Below are positions 1 to 34,901 of a DNA stretch of 34,901 nt, one piece after another. Within the stretch, counting starts at the first letter, position 1; each line of letters starts with the position of its first letter. Made by a program: the position numbers and the translations under genes. The stretch is from a virus. A model generated the notes under the pieces. It worked only from the letters and a program-made list of their open reading frames with translations, did not search any database and was not told the origin of the DNA. Where the stretch lies: IMG/VR virus record IMGVR_UViG_3300043313_001987, positions 1 to 34,901 of that record; one strand, given 5' to 3'.

Positions 1-65
1 GCGGACATGAAGTCGTCTCCTCGGTTGGTGATCCCCCAGGGGGAGGTCGAGTCGTAGGCGGCGGC
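1..65. repeat. Terminal direct repeat marking a circular genome (left copy)
   Basis: Bases 1-65 are identical to bases 34837-34901. The endolysin reading frame continues without a stop across the join, so this is the overlap of a circular or circularly permuted assembly and not a mobile-element repeat. The unique genome length is therefore about 34,836 bp. Confidence 0.95.
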
Positions 66-28799: not shown

Positions 28800-29089
28800 C
28801 AGGACACCCGCCGATCCGGTGCAGCGGCCGAGGCGGTGGGAGAAGCGAAGGTGTGGTGCGCGATCGACAGGCAGACATGCCCGAGGTCGGCCCACGCCAC
28901 CGCGTCGTGCAGCGTGTCGAACGTGTGGACGGTGCCGTCCGGGCAGGTGACCGTCGTGCGCTGTCGCGACCCGCCTAGTGGAGAAGCGTTCTCACTGGGG
29001 GGGGGGGGGGCTTGCCTTAGCGGGTTGCGGGGCGCGTCACGGTCTCCCGATCCTGGATCGGGAGGCCCGACGTGGTGCACGTCGGCCAT
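28799..29089 (-). CDS. Hypothetical protein containing a 14-base homopolymer
   Basis: 96 residues from ATG 29089 (AGAAGGTGA 7 nt upstream). The C-terminal half looks like real protein (TTVTCPDGTVHTFDTLHDAVAWADLGHVCLSIAHHTF). The N-terminal half is Pro/Gly/Arg-rich. It contains a run of 14 C on the coding strand (28997-29010) encoding APPPP, and a 10-bp inverted repeat at 29044-29064. No start codon exists after the homopolymer in this frame. The homopolymer therefore decides whether the gene is in frame, so it could be phase-variable or miscounted by sequencing. Confidence 0.5.
   Translation of the reverse strand: MADVHHVGPPDPGSGDRDAPRNPLRQAPPPPSENASPLGGSRQRTTVTCPDGTVHTFDTLHDAVAWADLGHVCLSIAHHTFASPTASAAAPDRRVS
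28997..29010 (-). repeat. 14-base homopolymer (G on plus strand, C on coding strand)
   Basis: Fourteen consecutive G lie inside the gene at 28799-29089. At exactly 14 the ATG at 29089 is joined in frame to the conserved-looking C-terminal half. Any change not divisible by three would separate them. Confidence 0.9.
29044..29064. other. 10-bp inverted repeat near the start of the homopolymer gene
   Basis: CTCCCGATCC (29044-29053) and GGATCGGGAG (29055-29064) are exact reverse complements separated by one base. Such a nearly perfect 21-bp dyad could be an operator or a hairpin. It lies 25 bp inside the called gene, which makes the true start of that gene less certain. Confidence 0.55.
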
Positions 29090-29216: not shown

Positions 29217-29390
29217 TCACACCGTCTGCTGCGCGTCGAGCCATTCGACCAGCTGGGCTCGTGAGTACAGCAGCTTGCGTCCGACCTTGACCGCCGGAGG
29301 TCCGGTGCCCTCGACCCGCCACTTGTACAACGTGGGCTTCGGGGTGCGGAGGAGGTCGGATACTTCCTCGCTGGTCAGGTAGTCGGGCAC
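29217..29390 (-). CDS. xis: Excisionase/MerR-type helix-turn-helix protein
   Basis: 57 residues from GTG 29390 (GGAGA upstream). PDYLTSEEVSDLLRTPKPTLYKWRVEGTGPPAVKVGRKLLYSRAQLVEWLDAQ is the HTH_17/excisionase domain, with the YL(T)..EVS.LL.....TLYKWR..G.GP...KVG....Y...L..WL pattern. It is the first gene of the early minus operon, next to the switch region. It is either the excisionase for the integrase at 29972 or a Cro-like regulator of the switch. Confidence 0.85.
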   Translation of the reverse strand: MPDYLTSEEVSDLLRTPKPTLYKWRVEGTGPPAVKVGRKLLYSRAQLVEWLDAQQTV

Positions 29391-29431
29391 GGTGCTCTCC
29401 GGTTCGGGGAACTGGTTGTGCGTGGTTCTGC

Positions 29432-29463
29432 GATGTCGAAAACGTACGTTTGCTATCGACATC
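29432..29463. promoter_or_regulatory. Operator palindrome in the lysogeny switch
   Basis: GATGTCGA (29432-29439) and TCGACATC (29456-29463) are exact reverse complements 16 bp apart, and a perfect palindrome AAACGTACGTTT (29440-29451) lies between them. The site overlaps the -10 of the minus promoter and the -35 of the plus promoter. One protein, most likely the XRE repressor at 29493, could therefore control both. Confidence 0.7.
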
Positions 29464-29469
29464 GTGCAA
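29441..29469 (-). promoter_or_regulatory. Early lytic promoter (minus strand)
   Basis: The minus strand reads TTGCAC (29469-29464), a 17-bp spacer, then TACGTT (29446-29441), a fair sigma70-type promoter. It would start transcription about 45 bp before the excisionase-like gene and drive the long early operon. It is overlapped by the operator palindromes. Confidence 0.65.
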
Positions 29470-29485
29470 GCCATTCCTGTAGATT
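29456..29485 (+). promoter_or_regulatory. Repressor-integrase promoter (plus strand), probably leaderless
   Basis: TCGACA (29456-29461), an 18-bp spacer and TAGATT (29480-29485). The repressor ATG lies 7 bp past the -10, where transcription would begin, and no Shine-Dalgarno is present. This implies a leaderless mRNA, common in actinobacteria. A CCATTC/GAATGG inverted repeat (29471-29476, 29491-29496) flanks the -10. Confidence 0.6.
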
Positions 29486-29492
29486 CCCTAGA

Positions 29493-29972
29493 ATGGAAAC
29501 AGGCGCACCGATAGCCGAGCGGGTGGCGACGAACCTGCGCTACCTCAGACAGGCCAGAGAGATCACCCTGGCGAAGCTCAGCGAGCAGCTCGCCAAGCAG
29601 GGCCGACCGATGGGGATCAGCGCCCTGTCCAAGGTCGAGCTGGGCCAGCGTGGGATAGACGTCGACGACCTCGTCGCGTTCGCCGATGCGCTCGGGACGT
29701 CGGTCAGCGACCTGCTTGGCGATCCGGCAGCCCGCGGTCACGAGTTGGCGTACGACCTCGTCGCCGATCTGCGTACTCGGCTGTCGCTGAACGAGCGCGT
29801 TCGCCGGCAGCACGAAATCGCCGAAGCGGAGAAGTGGTCGGCGATCGTCGACTTCGCCGCTGAGGGCCCGGCGGAGCTCGAGGCCGTCTGCCTCAGCTTG
29901 CGGGAGCAGTTCAAGGACGAGGCGGCCCGGCTTATCGAGCAGCTCCGGGCCGACATGAAGGAGCAGAACTGA
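29493..29972 (+). CDS. XRE-family immunity repressor
   Basis: 159 residues from ATG 29493. The helix-turn-helix is at about 8-65: IAERVATNLRYLRQAREITLAKLSEQLAKQGRPMGISALSKVELGQRGIDVDDLVAFADALGTSVSDLLG, a typical XRE/Cro-CI fold. A charged helical C-terminal half (ADLRTRLSLNERVRRQHEIAEAEKW...LSLREQFKDEAARLIEQLRADMK) could mediate dimerisation. There is no LexA-like peptidase part, so induction would not follow RecA-triggered self-cleavage. The stop shares a base with the integrase start, so repressor and integrase are made from one message. Confidence 0.85.
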   Translation: METGAPIAERVATNLRYLRQAREITLAKLSEQLAKQGRPMGISALSKVELGQRGIDVDDLVAFADALGTSVSDLLGDPAARGHELAYDLVADLRTRLSLNERVRRQHEIAEAEKWSAIVDFAAEGPAELEAVCLSLREQFKDEAARLIEQLRADMKEQN

Positions 29973-31096
29973 TGGCCAGCATCGACAAGCGACCCAACGG
30001 CATGTTCCGAGCGCGGTGGCGGGAGTACCCGAACGGTCCGCAGCACACCAAGCAGTTCCGGCTGAAGAAGGACGCCACGGCGTTCCTGGTGCATGTCGAG
30101 CACCGGCTCATGAGCGGCACCTACACGACGCCGTCGGCCGGCCAGATGACGGTCGAGGCGTACTCGGAGGAGTGGACCAGGCGGAGGAGCTGGTCGCCGG
30201 CGACGCACGACAGGGTCGCCCGGGAACTGCGTCTGCACATCCTGCCCCGCCTGGGCGACCGACCACTCGCTAGCCTGCGCCGGCCGCACATCGAGGAGTG
30301 GGCCAAGGGCCTCCCGCTGGCGCCGTCGAGTGCACGGATGGTCTACGAGACGTTGTCGTCGATGCTGGCCTGTGCCGTGGATGACGAGCGCATCCCGCGG
30401 AACCCGGCCAAGGACGCCCGGCTGGCGCAGGCCGAGGTCGTGCCGTTCGTCCCGCTGGCTGTCGACCAGGTCCTCGGCGTCGCCCACACTGCGCCGGAGC
30501 ACATCCGAGCAGCGGTGGTGCTCGGAGCCGGCACCGGCCTGCGCCAGGGCGAGCTGTTCGGCTTGACCGTGGATCGGATCGACTTCATGCGGCGTGAGCT
30601 CCGGGTCGACCGTCAGCTCTGGTCGCCGGCAACGGGTCGGCCGTTCCTGAAGTCGCCGAAGTCGAAGAACAGCTACCGGACCATCGCCCTCAGCTCGCTC
30701 GTGGTCGACACGCTCGCCGCTCATCTGGCCAACTTCGGGACGGGCGACGAGGAGCTGTGGGACGAGGCCACGAAGTCCACCGGGCCGGTCGCCCTCGTCT
30801 TCCACATCGGCGGCCGGGCCGTGGTGCGGGCGATGGCGACGAAGTACATGAGGACATCGACCCAGCGGGCCGGCGTGGCCGGGACATGGCACGACCTGCG
30901 CCACCACCACGCCTCCGTTCTGCTCGCCGCCGGCGTGAACCCGGCCAAGGTGGCGGAGCGGCTCGGGCACGACCTGAAGACGCTCCTGACGACCTACGCC
31001 CACGTCATGCCGAAGGACGACGACCGGGTCCGGAGCATCGTTGACGAGACCCTCGGCGTTTCAGCTGAGGACTGGTTGAGGACTAGGACGGTTTGA
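29972..31096 (+). CDS. int: Tyrosine site-specific integrase
   Basis: 374 residues. The N-terminus (SIDKRPNGMFRARWREYPNGPQHTKQFRLKKDATAFL) is an arm-binding AP2-like domain. A SAM-like core-binding domain spans about 60-150 (TVEAYSEEWTRRRSWSPATHD...). Catalytic residues are present: R191 in GAGTGLRQGELFGL, the KSPKSKNSYR lysine region (about 230), H307 and R310 in HDLRHHH, H333 in LGHD and nucleophile Y342 in TYAHV. attP follows immediately at 31064-31320. The 3' end of the gene itself carries two arm repeats. Confidence 0.95.
   Translation: MASIDKRPNGMFRARWREYPNGPQHTKQFRLKKDATAFLVHVEHRLMSGTYTTPSAGQMTVEAYSEEWTRRRSWSPATHDRVARELRLHILPRLGDRPLASLRRPHIEEWAKGLPLAPSSARMVYETLSSMLACAVDDERIPRNPAKDARLAQAEVVPFVPLAVDQVLGVAHTAPEHIRAAVVLGAGTGLRQGELFGLTVDRIDFMRRELRVDRQLWSPATGRPFLKSPKSKNSYRTIALSSLVVDTLAAHLANFGTGDEELWDEATKSTGPVALVFHIGGRAVVRAMATKYMRTSTQRAGVAGTWHDLRHHHASVLLAAGVNPAKVAERLGHDLKTLLTTYAHVMPKDDDRVRSIVDETLGVSAEDWLRTRTV
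31064..31086 (+). repeat. attP left arm repeats (two 11-bp tandem copies)
   Basis: GCTGAGGACTG then GTTGAGGACTA in tandem with an 11-bp period, inside the last codons of integrase. The same pair occurs in the same orientation at 31298-31320. This is the layout of integrase arm-type sites. Confidence 0.75.
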
Positions 31097-31100
31097 ACCG

Positions 31101-31190
31101 ATGAACGAGCAGAGCGTTTCCGCAGGTCAGAGCCGCAGAAGGGTCGTGCACATCGTCCCGCACACCCACTGGGATCGGGAGTGGTGGCCG
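31101..31190 (+). pseudogene. 5' fragment of a GH38 alpha-mannosidase gene (attP core region)
   Basis: ATG 31101, 4 bp after the integrase stop, begins MNEQSVSAGQSRRR and continues VVHIVPHTHWDREWW. HIVPHTHWDREW is the diagnostic N-terminal motif of glycoside hydrolase family 38 (His and Asp bind the active-site zinc). Similarity then stops and the frame runs on as unrelated sequence to 31313. The phage thus carries the first 30 or so codons of a host gene. On integration these would be joined to the rest of it. Confidence 0.75.
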
Positions 31191-31297
31191 CCACTAAGCA
31201 GCCTGGACTTTTCGCCCGGTATGGTCGGTTTGTCCAGCACATTCACCTGTCGTCGTCTCGCATTCGCTCTTGTCGTCAATCATCAGTTTGCGACATT

Positions 31298-31320
31298 GCT
31301 GAGGACTGGCTGAGGACTGG
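31298..31320 (+). repeat. attP right arm repeats (two 11-bp tandem copies)
   Basis: GCTGAGGACTG occurs twice in tandem (31298-31308, 31309-31319), matching the pair at 31064-31086 in sequence, spacing and orientation. It lies 4 bp before the probable -10 of the next gene, so integrase binding could also repress that gene. Confidence 0.75.
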
Positions 31321-32042: not shown

Positions 32043-32465
32043 ATGGACGGGTTCTCGGCTGCGTTCATCGAGGCGGCGAGTTGGGAGGGTCCGCTTCCTC
32101 ATCCGGCGCACTTGGCGCAGTACGAGGCGGCGTGCCCGGGGGCGGCGCAGGAGATCATCGACTTGTTGAAGCGTCAGGCGGCGCATCGGCAGGAGCTCGA
32201 GCTGATGGTGGTTCGGGGGAACGATCGCCGGGCGTCGCATGGTCTGTACATCGCCGGGTTTCTGGCGACGCTGGTTGTGGTCGCCGGGGTCTGGTTGATC
32301 TCGACCGGTCGGGGCGTCGCGGGGTTGGCGTTGCTGTTGAGCGAGATGGCGGTGTTGGCGGGGGTGTTCGTGTACGGCAAGTCGGATCAGCGTCGGGAGC
32401 GGTTGGAGAAGGCGAAGCTGATGGCCGGTCCTTCGCAGCCCGAGCTCCCGTTCCCGCCGAGCTGA
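32043..32465 (+). CDS. DUF2335-type membrane protein
   Basis: 140 residues. LPHPAHLAQYEAACPGAAQEIIDLLKRQAAHRQELELMVVRGNDRRASHGLYIAGFLATLVVVAGVWLISTGRGVAGLALLLSEMAVLAGVFVYGKSDQRRE matches the DUF2335 pattern. That pattern is an L..Y....PG....I..M...Q..HR..LE helix followed by two TM segments (about 66-85 and 90-110) and a GK....R.. end. The family is frequent in prophages and membrane-associated accessory loci. No function is established. Position beside attP suggests expression in lysogens. Confidence 0.85.
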   Translation: MDGFSAAFIEAASWEGPLPHPAHLAQYEAACPGAAQEIIDLLKRQAAHRQELELMVVRGNDRRASHGLYIAGFLATLVVVAGVWLISTGRGVAGLALLLSEMAVLAGVFVYGKSDQRRERLEKAKLMAGPSQPELPFPPS

Positions 32466-34529: not shown

Positions 34530-34901
34530 CTACTGGTCGCCCGGGTTCGCTTCGGCGTCGACCTTGCGGATCGCCGCCTGGACGTCGGGGTGACCGTAGA
34601 GGGCGAGGATCTGTCGGAGCTTCAGGTTGTTGCCGGAATCGAGGAGTTCACTGAACAGATACTTGACCCGGAAGAAGATGCTTCGGTTCCGGGTGTCGTC
34701 GTCGACGCCGTGGATGGACGTCTCGAGGCGTATGCACCGCTTGTGGGTGTCCTCGGCCATCATCTTGGCGGAGGCGGCGTACTCCTCGGCCTTCCGCATC
34801 CGGGTGAGGAGCTCTCGTTGTTCGGCGTCGGTCAGTGCGGACATGAAGTCGTCTCCTCGGTTGGTGATCCCCCAGGGGGAGGTCGAGTCGTAGGCGGCGG
34901 C
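34530..34901 (-). CDS. Endolysin C-terminal part, with internal start at 34844
   Basis: Continues the frame that begins at 431 (34837-34901 repeats 1-65). The last 104 residues (MSALTDAEQRELLTRMRKAEEYAASAKMMAEDTHKRC...) are helical, with RSIFFRVKYLFSELLDSGNNLKLRQILALYGHPDVQAAIRK. They probably form a wall-binding or oligomerising domain. ATG 34844 is preceded by GAGGAG with about 8 nt spacing, an excellent ribosome site for an in-frame codon. A separate 104-residue product may therefore be made. No peptidase residues are in this part. Confidence 0.75.
   Translation of the reverse strand, partial: AAAYDSTSPWGITNRGDDFMSALTDAEQRELLTRMRKAEEYAASAKMMAEDTHKRCIRLETSIHGVDDDTRNRSIFFRVKYLFSELLDSGNNLKLRQILALYGHPDVQAAIRKVDAEANPGDQ
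34837..34901. repeat. Terminal direct repeat marking a circular genome (right copy)
   Basis: Identical to bases 1-65; see that entry. The unique sequence ends at 34836. Confidence 0.95.

Follow-up and report, generated by a model that had tools for sequence, protein, structure and literature searches.

The window, by which we mean the whole stretch of 34,901 nucleotides of viral DNA analyzed here, begins and ends with the same 65 bases. When the two ends are joined, a coherent open reading frame of 245 residues crosses the join, and residues 20-133 of its product match a phage protein family; the contig is most likely the closed circle of a soil phage of about 34,836 bp (about 34.8 kb). Genes for terminase, portal, capsid, and tail proteins lie on the minus strand within 0-15.6 kb. 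Elsewhere in the circle a candidate excisionase gene on the minus strand faces genes for an XRE repressor and a tyrosine integrase (int) on the plus strand, and the region of interest lies at and just beyond the end of int. No tRNA or other known RNA was found in the window. The window is an IMG/VR virus record, and a contig identical to it is present in IMG metagenome 3300028754. The features to which we refer are the following:

1..65, no strand, left copy of the 65-bp terminal overlap, identical to 34837-34901
29217..29462, minus strand, candidate excisionase, a small DNA-binding protein of the HTH_17/AlpA type, divergent from the repressor (PF12728, E 1.2e-13)
29456..29485, plus strand, promoter-like hexamers TCGACA-18-TAGATT just before the repressor ATG at 29493 (a consensus match only; 1 found, 0.2 expected)
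29493..29972, plus strand, HTH_3/XRE repressor-like gene, its stop overlapping the int start (TGATG)
29972..31096, plus strand, tyrosine integrase gene int (PF00589, E 6.9e-16; catalytic residues conserved)
31064..31318, no strand, predicted attP, judged from the repeats and the layout of relatives: arm pair, repeat, GH38 core, arm pair
31064..31084, plus strand, P arm-type pair within the 3' end of int, made of two TGAGGACT units at a distance of 11 bp (GCTGAGGACTGGTTGAGGACT)
31101..31313, plus strand, open frame of 70 amino acids (MNEQSVSAGQSRRRVVHIVPHTHWDREWWPPLSS...) whose ATG lies 4 bp after the int stop; its first 28 codons would supply a rebuilt host GH38 gene with its 5' end
31115..31134, plus strand, GCGTTTCCGCAGGTCAGAGC, a 20-bp non-coding repeat scattered through actinophages and plasmids of actinobacteria, which this frame reads as leader codons (S)VSAGQS
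31135..31185, plus strand, GH38-homologous part, RRRVVHIVPHTHWDREW, the presumed common core of attP (profile, structure, and blast matches)
31298..31318, plus strand, P' arm-type pair, again made of two TGAGGACT units at a distance of 11 bp (GCTGAGGACTGGCTGAGGACT)
34837..34901, no strand, right copy of the terminal overlap, identical to 1-65

Two other features of the window may be recorded here. Between attP and the tail genes, in a block on the plus strand, a gene at 32043-32465 encodes a DUF2335 / PHROG 3996 membrane protein, in a position typical of lysogenic conversion genes; and a run of 14 G residues at 28997-29010 could reflect either uncertainty in the assembly or a phase-variable tract.

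Residues R191, K230, H307, R310, H333, and Y342 of the integrase are invariant in the integrase alignment. The two pairs of 11-bp repeats reported by the initial annotation are real: they form two 21-bp pairs of 11-bp units that bracket the GH38 core, and none of 100 dinucleotide shuffles of the 701-bp region produced such a repeat pair. The P pair recurs at the same place and with the same motif in two IMG/VR loci (L071 and L072), which have the arm motif TGAGGAC in common with the window. No clear inverted repeat was found in the core, the best candidate (6/9) having many equal alternatives and being uninformative. Loci L003-L005 have the arm-like 19-mer in common with the window, but they lack a related integrase and were rejected.

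The ATG at 31101 opens the sequence MNEQSVSAGQSRRRVVHIVPHTHWDREWW..., and the GH38 signature HIVPHTHWDREW follows in frame at 31149-31184 without an intervening stop. The nearest upstream in-frame stop is the TGA at 31077, and no start codon lies between the two; 31101 is thus the first possible start. A candidate Shine-Dalgarno sequence, AGGA (31085-31088), is weak and 12 bp away, which counts against the view that the frame serves a rebuilt gene. The motif HTHWDREW occurs once in the window, with none expected from 100 shuffles. Positions 2-19 of the 270 positions of PF01074 align to the signature (14.2 bits, E 5.6e-4 in a one-genome search), a score that falls under the family cut-off because only 18 residues match, and with no more of the catalytic domain matched the phage carries it incomplete. 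The NCBIfam model for mannosylglycerate hydrolase matches residues 14-29 of the open frame (E 1.5e-4), three GH38 chains of known structure align to it within residues 13-31 (E about 0.004), and no phage protein family matches the frame. On these comparisons the resemblance to GH38 is beyond chance, and the ATG-opened frame with its signature just behind the integrase is confirmed.

The GH38 match is shorter than first described. A similarity over some 30 codons from the ATG had been claimed; the match is real, but it covers at most 31135-31185, about 17 codons (approximately codons 12-28). At the right edge, GH38 genes carry a Tyr codon (TAY) after DREW where the phage has TGG; a Trp at this place, as in the phage, occurs in two GH38 genes of the Chloroflexota sample described below. 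On the left, codons 6-11 are not GH38 sequence; they are the repeat GCGTTTCCGCAGGTCAGAGC, an unrelated actinophage element. This repeat or a near copy of it is present in 140 phage records, nearly all of actinophages (109 with at least 99% identity across the part that matched), and, among the records listed, mostly outside annotated genes. It is found exactly in 27 further IMG/VR stretches and is also present in Streptomyces and Amycolatopsis plasmids. The only trace of its core in a literature text search was a primer in the phiJoe int-attP paper (PMC5311408). In mycobacteriophage Adephagia a copy lies beside the tmRNA core, and in Squirty inverted copies flank the core. A shorter version, GCAGGTCAGAGC, precedes a glnA core in loci L083 and L079 (see below), and the order arm, GCAGGTCAGAGC repeat, core is common to the window and these two loci. 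As to its distribution, carriers include phages of Mycobacterium, Gordonia, Streptomyces, and Nocardia; the repeat often lies near attP, integrase genes, or a genome end by terminase or HNH genes, and it is sometimes present in two or three copies 34-160 bp apart.

Given that GCGTTTCCGCAGGTCAGAGC is a phage repeat, both the start codon and a leader of about 12 codons are most likely phage sequence. This sharpens the earlier statement that the start and first codons are phage-borne and strengthens the reading in which the host start would be replaced upon integration. In sampled Chloroflexota genomes the leaders that precede HIVPH in GH38 proteins are short and variable in length and sequence; a foreign leader should therefore be tolerated and the replacement should be harmless.

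The arrangement of the region is that of its relatives. Paired direct repeats at the 3' end of int, with a second pair 140-310 bp further, are found in Arthrobacter phages Kukla and TripleJ, Gordonia phage Schmidt, Rhodococcus phage Sleepyhead, and IMG/VR loci L071, L072, and L083; the closest phage records have only the integrase in common with the window, at 35-37% identity. In Schmidt the core between the arms contains a tRNA T-arm. The attP of Sleepyhead (L068, 2660-2939) holds what its translation indicates is the C-terminus of an acyl-CoA dehydrogenase, ...ILDIFEGTQQIQQLIVARRLLGKSSAELK*, and its attB is probably the 3' end of that gene. Likewise, 24 bp between the arms of L083 (3151-3174) read as the 3' end of glnA, by translation, and L079 (3402-3603) has the identical 24 bp; beyond them L083 continues into unrelated DNA and L079 into the body of glnA. 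The two look like an attP-like and attL-like pair with the 3' end of the glutamine synthetase gene as target. Finally, in a Chloroflexota genome (G265; L045, 1005-2626) about 115 bp separate the end of a 40%-identical integrase gene from the 3' end of rnpB (RNase P RNA, RF00010), which suggests that rnpB is the target of that integrase. No target gene was recognized between the arms of Kukla, TripleJ, L071, or L072. The recognized targets (tRNA, rnpB, glnA, and acyl-CoA dehydrogenase) are all 3' ends, and in each case the gene points toward int and its 3' end is what the phage supplies; with these related integrases the gene end is joined to the body of the host gene on the int side. The window differs in that GH38 is read away from int, in the same direction as int itself, and a 5' end is supplied. 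The geometry is that of the relatives with the target gene reversed. No other phage with a GH38 motif in attP was found in IMG/VR.

We also searched for the host gene. A semi-strict pattern scan of 84,980 genomes, in which several synonymous positions were fixed so that hosts with other codons escape it, returned a single match, to a GH38 gene of the Thermoflexales (Chloroflexota; 35/37 bp). The identity is confined to the signature, and we rejected this gene as the host. When the attP DNA was compared with Chloroflexota genomes (searches of 301 and 110 genomes), 28 of the 301 matched the signature DNA, over conserved codons only; nearly all GH38 matches ended at 31185, and the best DNA matches of the core (97% over 35 bp) ended at the motif. 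We take these matches to be codon-level conservation rather than attB identity, and the 40%-identical integrase of this phylum sits at rnpB; Chloroflexota was accordingly set aside as host phylum. The GCGTTTCCGCAGGTCAGAGC repeat and the phage relatives point to Actinomycetota. No GH38 gene with nucleotide identity beyond the signature was found in the pattern scan of 84,980 genomes or in the Chloroflexota genomes; these searches yielded no lysogen either, and a search of the literature for prophage, attB, and alpha-mannosidase in combination found nothing.

Taking these observations together, we consider it probable that a temperate, actinophage-like virus has its attP at 31064-31318, inserts into the 5' end of a host gene for a GH38 alpha-mannosidase, and rebuilds that gene. 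Since the genome is most likely a closed circle, the site would be attP rather than attL or attR; the lack of a GH38 continuation to the right of the core is consistent with this. The integrase would bind the 11-bp arm sites of both pairs and recombine the core (31135-31185, at most about 51 bp) with the same sequence at the host GH38 5' end. Such a core is of the same order as published att cores of 24, 35, and 47 bp (PMC3203893, PMC6109161). At the int-side junction the order would be repressor, int, phage ATG and about 12 phage leader codons, HIVPHTHWDREW, and the remainder of the host gene; the phage ATG is in frame with that remainder, as judged from GH38 proteins rather than the actual host gene. 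The rebuilt gene would still encode the zinc-binding motif of the enzyme; its start codon and leader, and probably its transcription, would come from the phage, with MNEQSVSAGQSR as the predicted N-terminal peptide of the hybrid protein in a lysogen. At the other junction the host promoter and start would run into a dead-end frame that stops at 31313. The identity of attB, the crossover point, translation from 31101, and transcription from the repressor-int promoter are all points that we infer. The earlier claim of integration into GH38 thus stands in that the site lies beside an intact tyrosine integrase and its core is a GH38 5' part in frame with the phage ATG, but not in any GH38 DNA identity beyond the signature, the Chloroflexota matches (28/301) being over conserved codons only.

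As to transcription, the promoter-like site before the repressor gene and the absence of terminator-like sites up to 32100 make co-transcription of repressor, int, and mannosidase possible. Transcription of the mannosidase from the repressor-int promoter is plausible, and a promoter inside attP instead, as in HK022 (PMC6814406), is equally open. We offer only tentatively, as a possibility with somewhat less than an even chance, the further reading that the reversed target puts a host carbohydrate gene behind the repressor and int in an operon, which would make the mannosidase dependent on lysogeny and supply its N-terminus from an att-flanking repeat.

Might the GH38 signature be targeted but the gene simply interrupted, the phage ATG opening a chance frame and the lysogen making no full mannosidase? 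An open frame of 28 codons is common at high GC content, the ribosome-binding site before 31101 is weak, and some prophages enter genes and probably inactivate them (PMC9934374). Yet the frame opened by the first ATG after int contains the signature intact, and the relatives bring the end of their target gene in such a way that the gene is regenerated, and we regard simple interruption as unlikely. The smallness of the GH38 piece would also suit a relic of host DNA captured by imprecise excision at a neighboring site, outside any recombination core. Against this, the fragment lies between the arm sites, where the relatives have their target-gene end, and it is a conserved signature rather than a random piece of a gene; an origin of this kind seems quite improbable. 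Least credible of all is that the resemblance arose by chance, or that the frame is a small phage gene in its own right that has a zinc-binding motif. A Pfam score under the curated cut-off speaks for this; against it, sixteen residues match the N-termini of GH38 proteins, the motif HTHWDREW was expected 0 times in shuffles, and the frame has no match to any phage family.

The preferred reading, rebuilding of the host gene from a phage-borne start, would add a tyrosine-integrase case to the few known phages that replace the start of a host protein gene, and it would do so in a group of integrases that otherwise bring 3' ends. On this reading, the host enzyme in a lysogen would be expressed from phage signals and carry a leader encoded by the phage. 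The GH38 zinc-site motif is strongly conserved among bacteria, so that a single attP could suit many hosts.

Coliphage HK022 recombines by means of a tyrosine integrase. Its insertion at torS resembles the proposed case in that int is nearest the host gene and phage DNA replaces the host promoter, but HK022 supplies a promoter and torS keeps its own start codon (PMC6814406). Closer in outcome is Burkholderia phage JC1, which enters the 5' end of rimO; the frame is preserved by an ATG in the phage, 15 bp upstream of the overlap at the att site, and only the first residues of the rimO product are changed (PMC9144972). JC1 and the window thus have in common the 5' end of a protein gene and an in-frame phage ATG, whereas JC1 uses a serine recombinase and an 18-bp overlap, with attP upstream of the recombinase gene (PMC9144972), and the window combines a tyrosine integrase with arm sites, its core, at most 51 bp long, lying downstream of int. 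The SpyCI elements likewise attach at a 5' end, that of mutL, and a promoter located in the element's int region can restore mutL expression; however, mutL is usually silenced, and in the portion of that report drawn on here start-codon replacement is not described (PMC3430984). A vector of M. abscessus is predicted to enter at the sixth codon of a methyltransferase gene (PMC10654092). Among actinobacterial systems, Bifidobacterium prophages in dnaJ2 also use a tyrosine integrase and rebuild a protein gene, with a 35-bp core, but at its 3' end (PMC6109161). The attP of cluster K mycobacteriophages, like that of the window, has two pairs of 11-bp arm sites around the core and, in Adephagia, the same GCGTTTCCGCAGGTCAGAGC repeat beside it; it differs in its tmRNA 3' end target, its position 5' of int, and the inversion of P3/P4 (PMC3203893). 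The initial annotation was fair in holding 5' targets with start-codon replacement to be much rarer than tRNA 3' ends, but the strategy has already been published (PMC9144972, PMC6814406). The window would be an uncommon case of a known strategy, with GH38 as a new target gene and with a tyrosine integrase.
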